The notes under the pieces: model-generated | What the model was told of the DNA's origin: nothing | The model's input: the letters and a program-made list of their open reading frames with translations, nothing else | The model's database searches: none | Made by a program: the position numbers and the translations under genes | Assembly (NCBI GenBank): GCA_025351925.1 | Contig: JANXVC010000318.1 | Location: forward strand, 1-41,948 | Direction of reading: 5' to 3' | DNA length: 41,948 nt | Origin: Rhodospirillales bacterium | GTDB lineage: Bacteria > Pseudomonadota > Alphaproteobacteria > Acetobacterales > Acetobacteraceae | Part shown: positions 836 through 22,797 of the stretch, piece after piece | How the letters are laid out: every line of letters begins with the position of its first letter | Numbering within the stretch: the first letter of the stretch is position 1

Positions 836-1879
836 ATGGACGGCATGTTGCGCGGCTTCTGGTATCTGGCCGCATCGGCCCGCAGCCTGAAACCCGGCAA
901 GACGCTCCCGGTCAGGCTGCTGGACGAGGACTTGCTGCTCGGACGCCGCGCCGACGGCTCGGTGTTCGCGGTCAGCGACGCCTGCCCGCACCGCGGCATG
1001 CCGATGCGGCACGGCTCGTTCGACGGGCAGACGCTGCGCTGCTGCTACCACGGCTGGGCGTTCCGCAGCACGGATGGCTGCTGCACCGAAATCCCGTCAT
1101 TGGCGCCCGACGACCGGACCGACCCCGCCAAGTTCCGGCTGCGCACCTACCCGGCGCAGGACGTGCAGGGCAACCTCTGGGTGCTTGTCGGCACGGCCGG
1201 CCCCGGACTCGACACTAAGCCCGGCCCGGTGCCGACGGTGCCAGGCTTTGAGGGTCAGGCGCCGCAGGTCACCACGACAATGCGCTTCCCGTGCAGCGTC
1301 GATCTGGCGGCATGGGGCTTCTTCGACCCCGGGCACCCGGCCTTCGTCCATACCTCGCGCTGGTGGAAAAAGAACCCGGCGTCCCGGCTTCGGCTGAAGG
1401 AGAAGGGCTTCGAGCCTGAGGGCATGGGGTTCCGCATGCTGCGGCACCATTTAAAAGAGGGCGCCAATCCCTATCGCCTGCTGGGCCGCAACGTGCGGAT
1501 CGACATCGGCATCCAGCTGCCGGGCGTGCGGATCGAGCACATCCAGGGCGACCGGCACTCCGCCTGCGTGCTGGCCGCCGCAACGCCGCTGAGCGCCACC
1601 GAAACCGACGTGCATTATTGCGTCTATTGGACCATGCCGTGGTTGGCGCCGCTGCGTCCTGTGGCGACGTGGATGGCGCGGGATTTCCTGAACCAGGACC
1701 GCGAGGTGGCGGCGCGGCTGATGGGCAACCCGGCCCTGCCGGCGCCGCTATTTGTGGGCGACCCGGATACCCAGGTGCGCTGGTACATGCGGCTGAAAAA
1801 GGAGTACCTGGCGGCGCGGGAGGAAGGGCGGCCGTTCGTCAACCCGCTTCGCGAGCAGACGCTGCATTGGCGCAGCTAG
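836..1879 (+). CDS. Rieske [2Fe-2S] aromatic-ring/O-demethylase-type oxygenase alpha subunit
   Basis: Likely the oxygenase component of a Rieske non-haem iron oxygenase (VanA/pheophorbide-oxygenase-like monomeric type, about 347 residues). The N-terminal Rieske domain carries CPH, 16 residues, then CCYH (Cys50/His52 and Cys69/His72 approximately), the ligands of the 2Fe-2S cluster. The catalytic domain shows DPGHPAFVH, the two-histidine motif for mononuclear iron, and a late Asp in NQDREVAARL that could be the third ligand. The ATG at 836 was chosen; a TTG at 821 in the same frame has a better AAAGGG spacing and would add five residues. No reductase or ferredoxin gene is adjacent, so the electron donor and the substrate are unknown. 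The 3' end overlaps the convergent ribokinase by 41 bp. Confidence 0.85.
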   Translation: MDGMLRGFWYLAASARSLKPGKTLPVRLLDEDLLLGRRADGSVFAVSDACPHRGMPMRHGSFDGQTLRCCYHGWAFRSTDGCCTEIPSLAPDDRTDPAKFRLRTYPAQDVQGNLWVLVGTAGPGLDTKPGPVPTVPGFEGQAPQVTTTMRFPCSVDLAAWGFFDPGHPAFVHTSRWWKKNPASRLRLKEKGFEPEGMGFRMLRHHLKEGANPYRLLGRNVRIDIGIQLPGVRIEHIQGDRHSACVLAAATPLSATETDVHYCVYWTMPWLAPLRPVATWMARDFLNQDREVAARLMGNPALPAPLFVGDPDTQVRWYMRLKKEYLAAREEGRPFVNPLREQTLHWRS

Positions 1880-2750
1880 CCCGGTCGGTCTCTTCTTTGG
1901 TCGGCAAGGTGTTCTGAGAGCCGGCCTGGCTGCAGCAAAGGCCCGCCGCGACGTTGGCCCGGGCCATTGCGGCCGGCATCGTCATTCCGCGGTCGAGCGC
2001 CGCCGCCAGCACGCCGGTGAAACAGTCGCCCGCCGCCGTCGTGTCCACGACCTGGATCGGGTGGGCCGCGATGGTGCCCGCGTCACGCTCGTTGGCCCAC
2101 TCGGCGCCAAGCTCGCCGAGCGTTCGCACGACGCCCACCCTCAGCGCCGCGTGCAATCCAGCCGCATCGGCGTTCGTGCCGTGCCGGGCGGCCAGCCACT
2201 CCGCCTCGGTCTCGTTGACGATCAGCAGGTCCACGGCGCCAAGCGCATCGGCGTCGAGCGGGCTGGCCGGGGCGAGATTCATGATGATCCGCGCATTCCG
2301 CGCGCGGGCCCGACGGATCAACGCGGCGGTCTGCTGCGGGTCATTTTCCATCTGCAGCACCAGCGTGGCGCCGGAGCCTAGGATCGCGTCCTCAACCTGA
2401 TCGGCGCGGGCATGGGTATTGGCGCCGGACCCGACCGCGATCTGGTTGTGGCCAGCTGGGTCCGTGCAGATCGCGGCGCAACCCGTGCTAGCCTCGACCC
2501 GGGCGACGCGTGACAGGTCCACGCCCGCGGCTTGCATACTCGCCAGCGCCGCATCGGCCAAGGTATCTCGCCCGACGCAGCCCGCCATCAGCACGATGGC
2601 GCCATCCCGTGCCGCGGCGACGGCCTGGTTGGCGCCCTTGCCGCCCGGCTCGATGCGGGTTGTGGGGCCGAGCACTGTCTCCCCGGGGCTGGGAAGGTGG
2701 TTAAGCGCGAAGATCAGATCGAGATTGATCGAGCCGAAAACGATAATCAT
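1839..2750 (-). CDS. rbsK: Ribokinase (PfkB-family sugar kinase)
   Basis: PfkB carbohydrate kinase of 303 residues, probably phosphorylating ribose (or another small sugar) at the 5-hydroxyl with ATP. The sequence shows the N-terminal GSINLD, the substrate-site GGKGANQA (residues 36-43), a LIVNETEAE segment, and the PfkB signature AAGDCFTG (239-246) with catalytic Asp242. The C-terminal SQAGSQNTLPT matches the ribokinase end, followed by a short non-conserved tail that runs into the Rieske gene. The start ATG is the last of three ATGA junctions in a tandem duplication that links it to thyX upstream, so translation is probably coupled to thyX. No ribose transporter or rbsD is nearby. Ribokinase is the best guess, but the substrate is not proven by sequence. 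Confidence 0.88.
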   Translation of the reverse strand: MIIVFGSINLDLIFALNHLPSPGETVLGPTTRIEPGGKGANQAVAAARDGAIVLMAGCVGRDTLADAALASMQAAGVDLSRVARVEASTGCAAICTDPAGHNQIAVGSGANTHARADQVEDAILGSGATLVLQMENDPQQTAALIRRARARNARIIMNLAPASPLDADALGAVDLLIVNETEAEWLAARHGTNADAAGLHAALRVGVVRTLGELGAEWANERDAGTIAAHPIQVVDTTAAGDCFTGVLAAALDRGMTMPAAMARANVAAGLCCSQAGSQNTLPTKEETDRASCANAASAREAG

Positions 2751-2795
2751 GCGTGCTTCGCCCCGACTATCATGCGTGCTTCGCCCCGACTATCA
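2746..2795 (-). repeat. 23-bp tandem duplication encoding two micro-ORFs between thyX and ribokinase
   Basis: Positions 2746-2768 and 2769-2791 are identical 23-bp units, and a partial third begins at 2792. Read on the minus strand, each unit holds a GGGGCG purine tract and an ATGA. This gives two identical ORFs, 2796-2770 and 2773-2747, each encoding MIVGAKHA. The thyX stop overlaps the first ATG, each micro-ORF stop overlaps the next ATG, and the last ATG is the ribokinase start. The 23-bp period equals 27 nt minus the 4-nt overlap, so copy number can change without breaking the chain. Confidence 0.9.
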
Positions 2796-3728
2796 TGCGC
2801 GCCCCAGGGTCTCCATCAGCTCCGTCCACTCACGCTTCGACAGGCCGCTGCCGGGCTGATCGACGGGCTCGCCGGCCAGCAGGCGGCGGACGACTGCGAG
2901 CATCTGCGCCGACAGCGTCGCGGCACCCATGCGGTAGTCCTGGAATGCCTGGAATGTCGCGGGGACCCAGGCGCGCACGGTGTCCAGCATCGCATCGGCA
3001 TAGACGCGGATTTCGAACTGCGCGTGGCTGTCGGCGCGGAGCGACAGGAATCCCAGCAGGTTGTGGAGATCGGCCTTCCAATACCACTGCGTGTAGGTGT
3101 TGAGCGTGAGGTTCATCCGGGCCAGCTCCCGCGCCAGGCCGCGGCGGCTGGGATCGGCGGGCTCGCCGTCGGCGCCCTCGTTCAGCATATGGGCGTAGTG
3201 GTCGTAGGTCAGCGTCGCGTCTTGGCGCAGCATGTCCAGCACGGCGGCGGCCTCATTGCCCTCCAGCACGGCGCCGCGGCCCTGGCGGTTGCTGCTGCTT
3301 TGCGCGGCCAGGTGCTCAGGGGCGGGAATGTAGAACTCGCGGTCGAGGATGCTGTAGCGGGCGGAGTACTCGTTCACGTTCGCCATGCGGTGCCGTATCC
3401 ACTGGCGCGCCACGAAGATCGGCAGCTTCACATGGTACTTGATCTCGCACATCTCGAACGGCGTGCTGTGGCGGTGCCGCATCAGGTAGCGGATCAGCCC
3501 GGCGTCCTCGCTGACCCGGCGGGTGCCGCGGCCATAGCTGACGCGCGCCGCCTGCACCACCGCGTCGTCGTCGCCCATGTAGTCGATCACCCGGACGAAT
3601 CCGTGGTCCAGCACTGGCAGCGCACGATAAAGCATATCCTCCAGCGCCGGTACCGTTGCGCGCCGTGTCGGAGCGGCGGCCTCGCGCTGCTGATCGATTT
3701 CGGTCTGTTGTTCGGGGGTCAATCGCAT
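2793..3728 (-). CDS. thyX: Flavin-dependent thymidylate synthase
   Basis: ThyX methylates dUMP to dTMP using FAD, NADPH and methylene-tetrahydrofolate. It replaces ThyA in many alphaproteobacteria. The 311-residue protein contains the signature [15 protein letters not shown] (RHR, seven residues, then Ser) that binds FAD and dUMP, and preceding family sequence such as [20 protein letters not shown]. The ATG at 3728 was preferred because AGGGG lies seven bases upstream of it; an in-frame ATG nine codons earlier at 3755 lacks that signal. The gene is divergent from the tmRNA gene, whose 5' end begins only about 30 bp away, so the promoters must be compact or overlapping. Downstream it feeds, through micro-ORFs, into ribokinase. 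Confidence 0.96.
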
Positions 3729-3758
3729 GGTCTTACCCCTAGCATTCCATCGCACGAA

Positions 3759-4060
3759 CGCCTATGTCTCGCATGCTGTAACAACGGCTATGGTGATAAA
3801 CGGTAGTTGGAATAAGCGTTGTGGACCCGGGGGCAGTGCCCGGCGCCTCCACCAGTTCCACCCGATGGTCTCGGGGGTTTTGGCTGCGGGGGCGACACAG
3901 GCTCGACACGCGTAGTAAAGACCTGCCTTTTGCTCGGCATGATACCGCCGTTATCGGGTCATATCACAAGTGCCAATGACAATCATGAGGCGCTCGCCGT
4001 CGCTGCGTAAGCAGAGATAGGCGCGGTTCGGGGGGGCACCGGGCAACAGAAGCCCCCTCA
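3759..4060 (+). ncRNA. ssrA: Two-piece (circularly permuted) tmRNA
   Basis: Rescues stalled ribosomes by acting first as tRNA-Ala and then as mRNA. The gene order is permuted, as in alphaproteobacteria. The acceptor piece ends in a T-arm (stem 3827-3831/3839-3843, 7-nt loop) followed by CGCCTCC and ACCA at 3844-3854. A 33-nt spacer follows, then the coding piece from 3888. GGGGGCG (3888-3894) pairs with CGCCTCC and places a G-U at pair 3, the alanine identity wobble. GGCTCGAC resembles the conserved D-loop region. The tag frame 3972-4010 reads ANDNHEALAVAA and stops with TAA. CGCCTAT at 3759-3765 pairs with ATAGGCG at 4017-4023, closing a helix across the break. Outer ends are approximate; a GGGGGC/GCCCCC hairpin at 4032-4057 may mark the 3' end. 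Confidence 0.9.
3855..3887 (+). other. Internal transcribed spacer of permuted tmRNA
   Basis: This 33-nt segment lies between the CCA end of the acceptor piece and the first G of the coding piece. It can fold as a small hairpin (CCCGA at 3861-3865 with TCGGG at 3871-3875). By analogy with known two-piece tmRNAs it is expected to be excised during processing. The boundaries follow from the inferred acceptor stem. Confidence 0.65.
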
Positions 4061-20556: not shown

Positions 20557-20997
20557 TGCCAGACGGCCGGACGGCCGCTGCTGGGTTCACGGCGCCAGCC
20601 TCGCTGGCGTTCTGGGTCTGGTGGAGGAAAGTCCGGGCTCCACGGGAACACGGTGCCGGCTAACGGCCGGCGAGGGCGACCTCAGGGAAAGTGCCACAGA
20701 AAACAAACCGCCGGCTCGTCGTAGGACCAGTCGGCACGGGTGAAACGGTGCGGTAAGAGCGCACCGCGCCCCTGGCAACAGGGGCGGCAGGGTAAACCCC
20801 ACCGGGAGCAAGACCGAATAGGGGTGGCCGGCGGCGCGGACGGGCAACCGGCCGCGTGACGCAGGGGCGTTCCCGCCCCGCAACCCGGGTTGGTCGCGGG
20901 AGGCGCGCAGCGATGCGCGTCGCAGAGGAATGGTCGTCCCGGTCTTGCGCTTTGCGGCGCAGGGTCGGACAGAACCCGGCTTACAGGCCGTCTGGCA
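20557..20997 (+). ncRNA. rnpB: RNase P RNA, bacterial class A
   Basis: Catalytic RNA that matures tRNA 5' ends. Conserved elements occur in order: GAGGAAAGTCCGGGCTCC at 20624-20641, GAAAGTGCCACAGAAA near 20687, GAGCAAGACCGAATAGG near 20805-20822, and ACAGAACCCGGCTTACAGG near 20969-20987. The ends are set by an 11-bp perfect helix P1, GCCAGACGGCC (20558-20568) with GGCCGTCTGGC (20986-20996). Length is about 440 nt. It lies 30 bases after the amidase stop and before the dcw cluster. No clear promoter was found in the short upstream gap, so it may be transcribed from inside the amidase gene. Confidence 0.97.
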
Positions 20998-21019
20998 GTT
21001 TTCCTTTGGAGCAATTTTT

Positions 21020-21341: not shown

Positions 21342-21818
21342 ATGGGCCGGGCCGTAATGAGCCACTTCCTGGGCACGCATCAGAATCGCCTCGACGCCAA
21401 GGGACGCGTCTCGGTCCCGGCCGCCTTCCGCACGCATCTGCGCAACGGTTCGGAAAACGGCGTGGCCAGCCTGATCTTGCGCCCCTCGCACAAGTATCCC
21501 TGCATCGAGGCTTGGCCGGAAGCCGTGTTCGAGACGCTCGCGGCGCCGCTCGACCGCCTGGACATGTTCAGCGAAGACCAGGACGACCTCATCATGGCGC
21601 TTTACGCCGACGCCACGCGCGTCGAGGCAGATAAGGAGGGACGCATCGTGCTGCCCGAGTCGCTGGTGCAGCACGCTGGCCTTACAGAAAACGTCGTGTT
21701 CATGGGCCTTGGCCGCACCTTCCAGATCTGGGAGCCCGCGGCAGCCGAACAGCGCCGGACCGCCGCCCGCACGGCCGCCCGGTCCCGCGCGCTGACGCTG
21801 CCGGCGGGGCCCGCATGA
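21342..21818 (+). CDS. mraZ: Transcriptional regulator MraZ
   Basis: DNA-binding AbrB-fold protein, 158 residues from this start, that represses its own dcw promoter. Two tandem MraZ domains are visible: [20 protein letters not shown] near the start and [20 protein letters not shown] near residue 85. Each has the DxxGR core. The ATG at 21342 follows AAGGCGG by five bases; an in-frame ATG at 21357 (MSHFLGT) would give a more usual N-terminus. A low-complexity Ala/Arg-rich tail of about 25 residues follows the second domain. Its own probable operator array lies 57 bases upstream. A six-codon micro-ORF links it to rsmH. Confidence 0.95.
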
Positions 21819-21835
21819 TGCAGATTTTCTTATGA
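21815..21835 (+). other. Micro-ORF bridging mraZ and rsmH
   Basis: ATG at 21815 opens MMQIFL and stops at TGA 21833-21835. Its first bases overlap the mraZ stop (ATGA) and its stop overlaps the rsmH start (ATGA). The micro-ORF start region ATGATGCAGATT matches the rsmH start ATGACGCAGATT at 11 of 12 bases, suggesting a local duplication of the initiation site. Confidence 0.55.
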
Positions 21836-22797
21836 CGCAGATTCCGGGCCACATCCCCGTCATGCTGCCGGCTGTGCTGCGTCACCTCGCTCCCACGGCC
21901 GGTGAGGTGCTGCTAGATGGCACCTTCGGCGGTGGCGGCTACGCATCGGCAATCCTGGACGCGGCCCACTGCACGTTATGGGCTATCGATCGCGATCCAG
22001 CGGCCATCGCCCGCGGGGCGGCGCTTGCGGCGCGCTACCCCGGCCGGCTGCATCTGCTGCAGGGCCGCTTCGGCGACATGCTTGGGCTGCTGGCGGACCA
22101 AGGCGTCGGCAAGCTGAATGGCGTCGTGCTGGACCTGGGCGTCTCGTCGTTTCAGATCGACGACCCCGCCCGTGGCTTCAGCTTCCGCAGCGACGGCCCG
22201 CTGGATATGCGGATGGCGGCGTCCGGCCCAACCGCGGCGGACCTAGTGAACAACCTGCCAGAGGCCGAGCTCGCCGACACGCTGTATCAGTTCGGCGAGG
22301 AGCGGCTGTCGCGCCGTATCGCGCATGCCATCACCGCTGCCCGGGCCGAGGCGCCAATCGAGACGACGCTCCAACTCGCCGCCATCATCCGTAAGGTGGT
22401 GCCGCCGGACCGGTCGGGTATCGACCCCGCCACCCGCAGCTTCCAGGCACTGCGCATCCGGGTCAACGACGAGCTCGGCGAGATCGAACGTGCGCTGCAG
22501 CAGGCGGCGTCGCTGCTGGCGCTCGGCGGACGGCTGGTCGTCGTGTCTTTCCATTCTCTGGAGGACCGGCTGGTGAAACGCTTCATGCTGGAGGCGGCCG
22601 GGCGCTCGCCGGCGCCGTCGCGTCATGACCCGCGCAGCCTGATGGACCGTGGGCCGCCCGGATTTCAGCTGCTGACCAACGGCGCCGAACGGCCGGACCC
22701 GGATGAGGCCCGCGCCAACCCTCGTGCCCGCAGCGCCCGCCTCCGTGCCCTGGCCTGCCTTGCCGCAACCCATGACCGGGATACCGCCCCAGCATGA
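21832..22797 (+). CDS. rsmH: 16S rRNA (cytosine-1402-N4)-methyltransferase
   Basis: AdoMet-dependent enzyme (formerly MraW) that methylates C1402 in the decoding centre of 16S rRNA. The 321-residue protein opens with [13 protein letters not shown] and the AdoMet-binding [14 protein letters not shown], followed by [26 protein letters not shown] and the conserved [15 protein letters not shown] and [14 protein letters not shown] segments. A normal length and complete motif set indicate it is functional. The stop overlaps the ftsL start as ATGA. Confidence 0.97.

Follow-up and report, generated by a model that had tools for sequence, protein, structure and literature searches.

Coupled translation of neighbouring genes is held to depend on an overlap or a very short gap, which makes the survival of coupled junctions through insertions a puzzle.

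Termination-reinitiation coupling at -4 nt (NTGA) overlaps is described in the passages cited here (PMC6728339; PMC10666635; PMC12548453). In six gene pairs from two species, ~20-nt spacing nearly abolished coupling, and reinitiation in two E. coli pairs required no more of the upstream gene than its last 15 nt (PMC10666635); a review cites, in the part used here, E. coli studies with wider spacing tolerance (PMC12548453). The same review describes MIRUs, short and apparently mobile repeats of many mycobacteria, as inserting at start codons, so that their internal ORF couples at -4 nt, and describes short uORFs that deliver the ribosome to the next gene (PMC12548453). A further case is the two-codon minigene of axe-txe, a tiny operon ORF whose frame and distance are reported to affect the next gene (PMC8708949).

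A tandem micro-ORF array between thyX and a ribokinase-like gene

The window analysed here is a whole contig (C528, 41,948 bp), one of the 547 that make up a 5.9-Mb genome assembly. Read along the minus strand, its thyX-kinase junction consists of CTGGGGCGCGC, ATGATAGTCGGGGCGAAGCACGC, ATGATAGTCGGGGCGAAGCACGC and ATGATTATCG in succession: the thyX end, two identical 23-bp units that separate the genes, and the kinase start (Table 1). Each unit is read in codons from its ATG to a final GC, and the ATGA that follows closes its frame. As read directly from the sequence, three ATGA stop/start overlaps and two MIVGAKHA micro-ORFs link thyX to the kinase, the third ATGA being the kinase start. The unit length fits 3n+2. 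The best NCBIfam match of the kinase was ribokinase TIGR02152, at 239 bits under the curated cut-off of 299.65, and its closest solved structures were ribokinases. Sequence similar to the tmRNA that lies divergent from thyX was found upstream of thyX in several relatives.

Table 1. Features of the window discussed in the text.
Feature	Coordinates	Strand	Basis
thyX, FAD-dependent thymidylate synthase, 311 aa, ends ...LGRA-stop in GC-ATGA	2793..3728	-	NCBIfam TIGR02170, above cut-off
23-bp unit 1; ATGA 2796-2793 holds thyX stop and micro-ORF 1 start	2774..2796	-	
Micro-ORF 1, MIVGAKHA-stop, 8 codons + stop	2770..2796	-	Direct reading; chain script
23-bp unit 2, same sequence as unit 1	2751..2773	-	
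Micro-ORF 2, MIVGAKHA-stop; stop overlaps kinase start via ATGA 2750-2747	2747..2773	-	Direct reading; chain script
Ribokinase-like PfkB-family kinase, 303 aa, starts MIIVFGSINLDL	1839..2750	-	NCBIfam; structures
Permuted tmRNA, alphaproteobacterial	3736..4060	+	Rfam RF01849; ARAGORN
RNase P RNA class A	20559..20999	+	
mraZ and rsmH	21342..22797	+	NCBIfam
Micro-ORF ATGATGCAGATTTTCTTATGA, MMQIFL-stop, between mraZ and rsmH	21815..21835	+	
Direct ATGA overlap of rsmH and FtsL gene	22794..22797	+	

The tandem 23-bp repeat with its two identical micro-ORFs, as proposed in an initial annotation of this DNA, was confirmed by the sequence itself, by Tandem Repeats Finder (2746-2799, period 23, 2.3 copies, 100% matches, top score of 41 rows) and by a unit search that returned two sites only in the window at ≤3 mismatches (0 expected, 100 shuffles). 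No further copy was found at ≤2 mismatches elsewhere in the 5.9-Mb genome; a dispersed repeat was ruled out, the unit standing at one genomic place. The three consecutive 4-nt overlaps and the arithmetic of the unit (23 = 3 x 8 - 1) also agreed with the annotation. Its placing of the array at 2746-2796 was right as to position, with the whole arrangement on the minus strand, which it had left unstated. The GGGGCG tract that it had reported before each start is present at uneven spacing, ending 3 nt before the first ATG and 8 nt before the others, and is not conserved, the units of a second species (G002) being without a GGGG run.

The genus set comprised four genomes including the window's own, and the locus was present in three of them; G003 (67% complete) gave no thyX match and no kinase match at 1e-40. 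G002 carries two units at the same position, with 3 of 23 bases different between them and both micro-ORFs intact (MIVVAERA and MIVVAKHA, each with its stop), so the units there are not in fast turnover; G001 carries none, its thyX and kinase being joined by a direct ATGA overlap. The count of ATGA joints is three in the window, three in G002 and one in G001. Comparison across these relatives for copy number returned 2, 2 and 0 units, a species-level difference among the three genomes with the locus, with no one- or three-unit genome; the chain was closed each time, as expected from the earlier claim that unit number can vary with the chain kept.

Trees paired G001 with G002 and left the window genome outside, for the kinase (DNA 100/98, protein 100/94) and for thyX (DNA 85/89, protein 94/80), from which the array was likely present in the genus ancestor and older than the split of G001 and G002. 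The simplest history is probably an ancestral array with both units cleanly lost in G001; independent gain, or exchange between lineages, may account for the pattern instead. Because the kinase gene begins with part of a unit (ATGATCGTCGT in G002), its start would stay intact if copies recombined with one another. Assembly collapse is an unlikely cause of the unit-free state of G001: one unit would be expected to remain after collapse of a tandem repeat.

Bridged thyX-kinase junctions across the family

The family survey covered 397 genomes drawn from the larger family, 135 of which had a kinase match at 1e-60, and one further genus (that of G334; 33 genomes, 31 with a match) was added. The junction set leaves out 13 match rows of the 397-genome survey. 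A junction was counted where thyX lay on the same strand inside the flank (mostly 900-1500 nt), and loci sharing an identical last 100 nt of thyX were treated as duplicates and removed. This gave 75 distinct same-strand junctions: 22 direct -4 overlaps, 21 gaps of <70 nt and 32 longer. The direct class holds the 21 junctions scored as such plus L129 (G123), where the script had set the start one codon late. In L270, L277 and L279 the kinase start was placed one or two codons early; thyX ends there in TAA, and the junctions are unchained regardless.

In nine of the 21 short-gap junctions, micro-ORFs with NTGA joints spanned the whole gap; the other 12 were unbridged. Two-micro-ORF bridges occurred in the window and G002 only. 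The one-step bridges were VSPAR (G222, gap 10), VRGAVPQR (G244, gap 19), four peptides across gaps of 22 (VIVMRSRMP in G010, LIVMRRRAP in G081, MSLSARPHP in G084 and MIERGACVA in G103) and a 23-codon frame with a TTG start (G421, gap 64); first letters follow the codon table, and as starts all would be Met. Contig C252 of G017 (L019/L037) has, ~1.1 kb beyond its full thyX match, another thyX-like match that is partial (query 233-310) and possibly a remnant duplication.

Background frequencies were taken with a simple codon-bias gene caller from ~990 kb of sequence, which came from the window together with five related genomes. Besides the finding itself, this background held 372 close co-directional pairs, 120 of them direct -4 overlaps; a one-micro-ORF bridge occurred in 20/252 non-direct pairs, and a two-step chain in 0/372 pairs, the window array itself aside. 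The thyX-kinase junctions of G084 and G103 were taken out of the background (20/252 becoming 18/250), the limit of the test was set at 60 nt, which leaves the G421 bridge outside and uncounted, and counting L129 as direct made the non-direct total 20 instead of 21. In a test picked after the data had been seen, with a crude gene caller, related genomes treated as independent, and starts set by homology at the thyX-kinase junction but accepted at any in-frame start codon for background pairs, 8/20 thyX-kinase non-direct pairs were bridged versus 18/250 background pairs (Fisher p 0.00014). The p value was 0.0025 with the window's genus removed (6/18 versus 18/250), 0.009 with G081 removed as well (5/17) and 0.033 with G244, of the same genus as G084, also removed (4/16); with G071 alone as background it was 0.006 (8/20 versus 11/92). 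One-step bridges are over-represented at the thyX-kinase junction in other genera.

Elsewhere in the window, mraZ and rsmH are joined by a one-step chain whose micro-ORF shares one ATGA with the stop of mraZ and another with the start of rsmH; rsmH meets the FtsL gene by direct overlap, and the RNase P RNA gene lies slightly upstream of this mraZ-rsmH-ftsL cluster (Table 1).

Origin of the unit and readings of the array

The unit would have arisen at a direct ATGA junction of thyX and kinase by a 23-bp tandem duplication spanning that junction. Since 23 is a multiple of three minus 1, the copied ATG would run into the copied thyX tail in the thyX frame, reading from it would end at the copied TGA, and each unit would become a closed start-to-stop module that shares a -4 nt overlap with each neighbour. 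We infer from base matches that the micro-ORF is best seen as a kinase head plus a thyX tail, both in their home frames, an arrangement that requires a unit length of 3n+2, as 23 is. Against a model join of the opening 11-14 nt of the kinase gene to the closing 9-12 nt of thyX, 19/23 bases matched in G002 unit 1 (7/20000 shuffles as good), 17/23 in G002 unit 2 (53/20000) and 16/23 in the window unit (232/20000). A single origin for all bridges was unsupported, the inserts of G084 and G103 showing no more likeness than shuffled sequence to the junctions in which they lie (6010/20000 and 12693/20000 shuffles as good). The 26-bp inserts of G010 and G081 are alike at 22/26 bases and match their own junctions at 16/26 (180 and 425 of 20000 shuffles as good). 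These two inserts (L024 and L076) both carry GCGGAG mid-insert, and their genera stand apart in the thyX tree; the likeness may reflect shared origin, transfer or selection.

The best explanation, and on balance a probable one, is a tolerated tandem duplication of a coupled junction together with a ribosome relay by reinitiation. A ribosome ending thyX would reinitiate at the overlapping ATG and make a throw-away 8-residue peptide, and reinitiation would recur at each micro-ORF until the kinase start. Gain or loss of a whole unit would open no gap in the chain. The array would be tolerated with selection on stop/start continuity alone, which is likelier than a role as regulator. The excess of bridges at this junction in other genera favours this reading, and the 12 short-gap junctions left unbridged weigh against it. 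By the stricter ~20-nt rule, a 42-nt spacer of the kind found here would forfeit most of the coupling if no ribosome were carried across it by the micro-ORFs. The peptide itself is unlikely to be functional: most micro-peptides of other genera are unrelated, and MIVVAKHA and its partner in G002 differ from MIVGAKHA without third-position bias. Changes between the window and G002 units fell 1, 3 and 4 of 8 at codon positions 1, 2 and 3, compared with 11, 6 and 76 of 93 in thyX; purifying selection on the micro-peptide was not detected in these 8 changes, which give low power.

A neutral relic is possible, though clearly less probable: a harmless slippage duplication, with the kinase initiated independently and the micro-ORFs as by-products of the repeated ATGA. 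One-step chains in general are not rare, as the 18/250 background pairs illustrate, and the chain survived 8 random substitutions in 43% of simulated trials, which makes the intact chain in G002 weak evidence of selection. Independent initiation would also suit the SD-like pairing before the window kinase start (-7.0 kcal/mol, near the best tenth of the background, with 10% point -7.2 and median -3.5), and folding of the window junction was no stronger than in shuffles (z 0.61), on which ground conserved RNA structure was rejected. A predicted hairpin of the last unit and the kinase start (-12.3 kcal/mol, mononucleotide z -2.8) is less marked in G002 (z -1.3), G010 (-1.2) and G081 (-0.8) and was for that reason not built upon. 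Against a relic, however, the G002 kinase start is almost without SD-like pairing (-0.7), the window and G002 units differ at 8/46 bases with zero indels, and the junction is bridged more often than background in other genera.

Copy-number tuning, in which kinase output would follow the number of units as set by slippage, appears improbable, and the initial annotation's suggestion of a tuning device is unsupported: only 0 and 2 units were seen, with no tie of unit number to kinase output. Both states do occur within one genus, and the copies, identical in the window but diverged in G002, would point to one or more additional events of homogenisation or duplication. Opening of the kinase start region in silico cost 7.3 kcal/mol with 0 units and 14.9-15.9 kcal/mol with 1-3 units. 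Against tuning, native direct junctions had a mean of 13.7 kcal/mol (sd 3.3, n=21), chained ones 12.2-24.2 (n=9) and unchained ones 6.8-17.4 (n=12); costs are high in all three classes, so structure does not mark the array out, and intermediate or higher unit numbers were absent from the genus genomes with the locus. Under the favoured relay, imperfect reinitiation at each step would make more units simply lower output.

That the inserts mainly provide a ribosome-binding site for the kinase, their open frames being incidental, is highly improbable: GGAG-type motifs precede the kinase start in G081 (-9.5 kcal/mol) and G103 (-8.3), but pairing is little or none in G002, G084 (-2.7), G421 (-2.5) and G222 (-3.7), all of them chained, and a strong SD as the common factor of the bridges was rejected because pairing is not uniform across them.

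As a rather doubtful generalisation of the relay, inserts at coupled junctions might be accepted mainly as closed micro-ORF modules (3n+2, with stop/start ends). The thyX-kinase junction would then be a natural relay series of one or two modules over gaps of 10 to 64 nt, in which coupling is kept over spacers otherwise too long. With 0, 1 or 2 serial micro-ORFs occurring naturally in related genera, the junction forms a ready panel, which could measure reinitiation efficiency multiplied over steps and the handing on of ribosomes by micro-ORFs of 5 to 9 codons.

Comparison with known coupling systems

In the open-access literature, neither a tandem micro-ORF array of this kind nor a thyX-ribokinase junction was found among the matches listed, and a search for thyX with ribokinase and coupling gave no match.

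Every joint of the array is the ATGA motif of -4 nt coupling, and the unit-free junction, in G001 and 21 others, is exactly such a junction; an ATGA, GTGA or TTGA at every joint, as in a -4 nt coupled gene series, was found in the window, G002 and G001. The array differs in having two serial micro-ORFs between the genes, with three joints in succession. The 15-nt case cited above concerns, as described there, the end of an upstream gene, not a micro-ORF itself entered by reinitiation (PMC10666635). The axe-txe minigene differs in having two codons only, and its authors suggest, in the part cited, mRNA protection (PMC8708949).

Like a MIRU as described in the cited passages, the window unit carries within it an ORF that meets the next gene at a -4 nt overlap, but it is 23 bp long and resembles its own flanks; MIRUs are dispersed over several places, whereas the unit was found at one place in 5.9 Mb (≤2 mismatches), and for both reasons the array was rejected as a MIRU. 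It shares with the uORFs a short ORF whose sole job would be bringing the ribosome to the coupled gene; the uORFs of the cited passages stand singly before a gene, whereas the micro-ORFs of the array are repeated and would receive their ribosomes from a complete gene upstream. Should the array function, it would do so in the manner of these ribosome-delivering uORFs and the ORFs of MIRUs, and it is a modest extension of known coupling systems.
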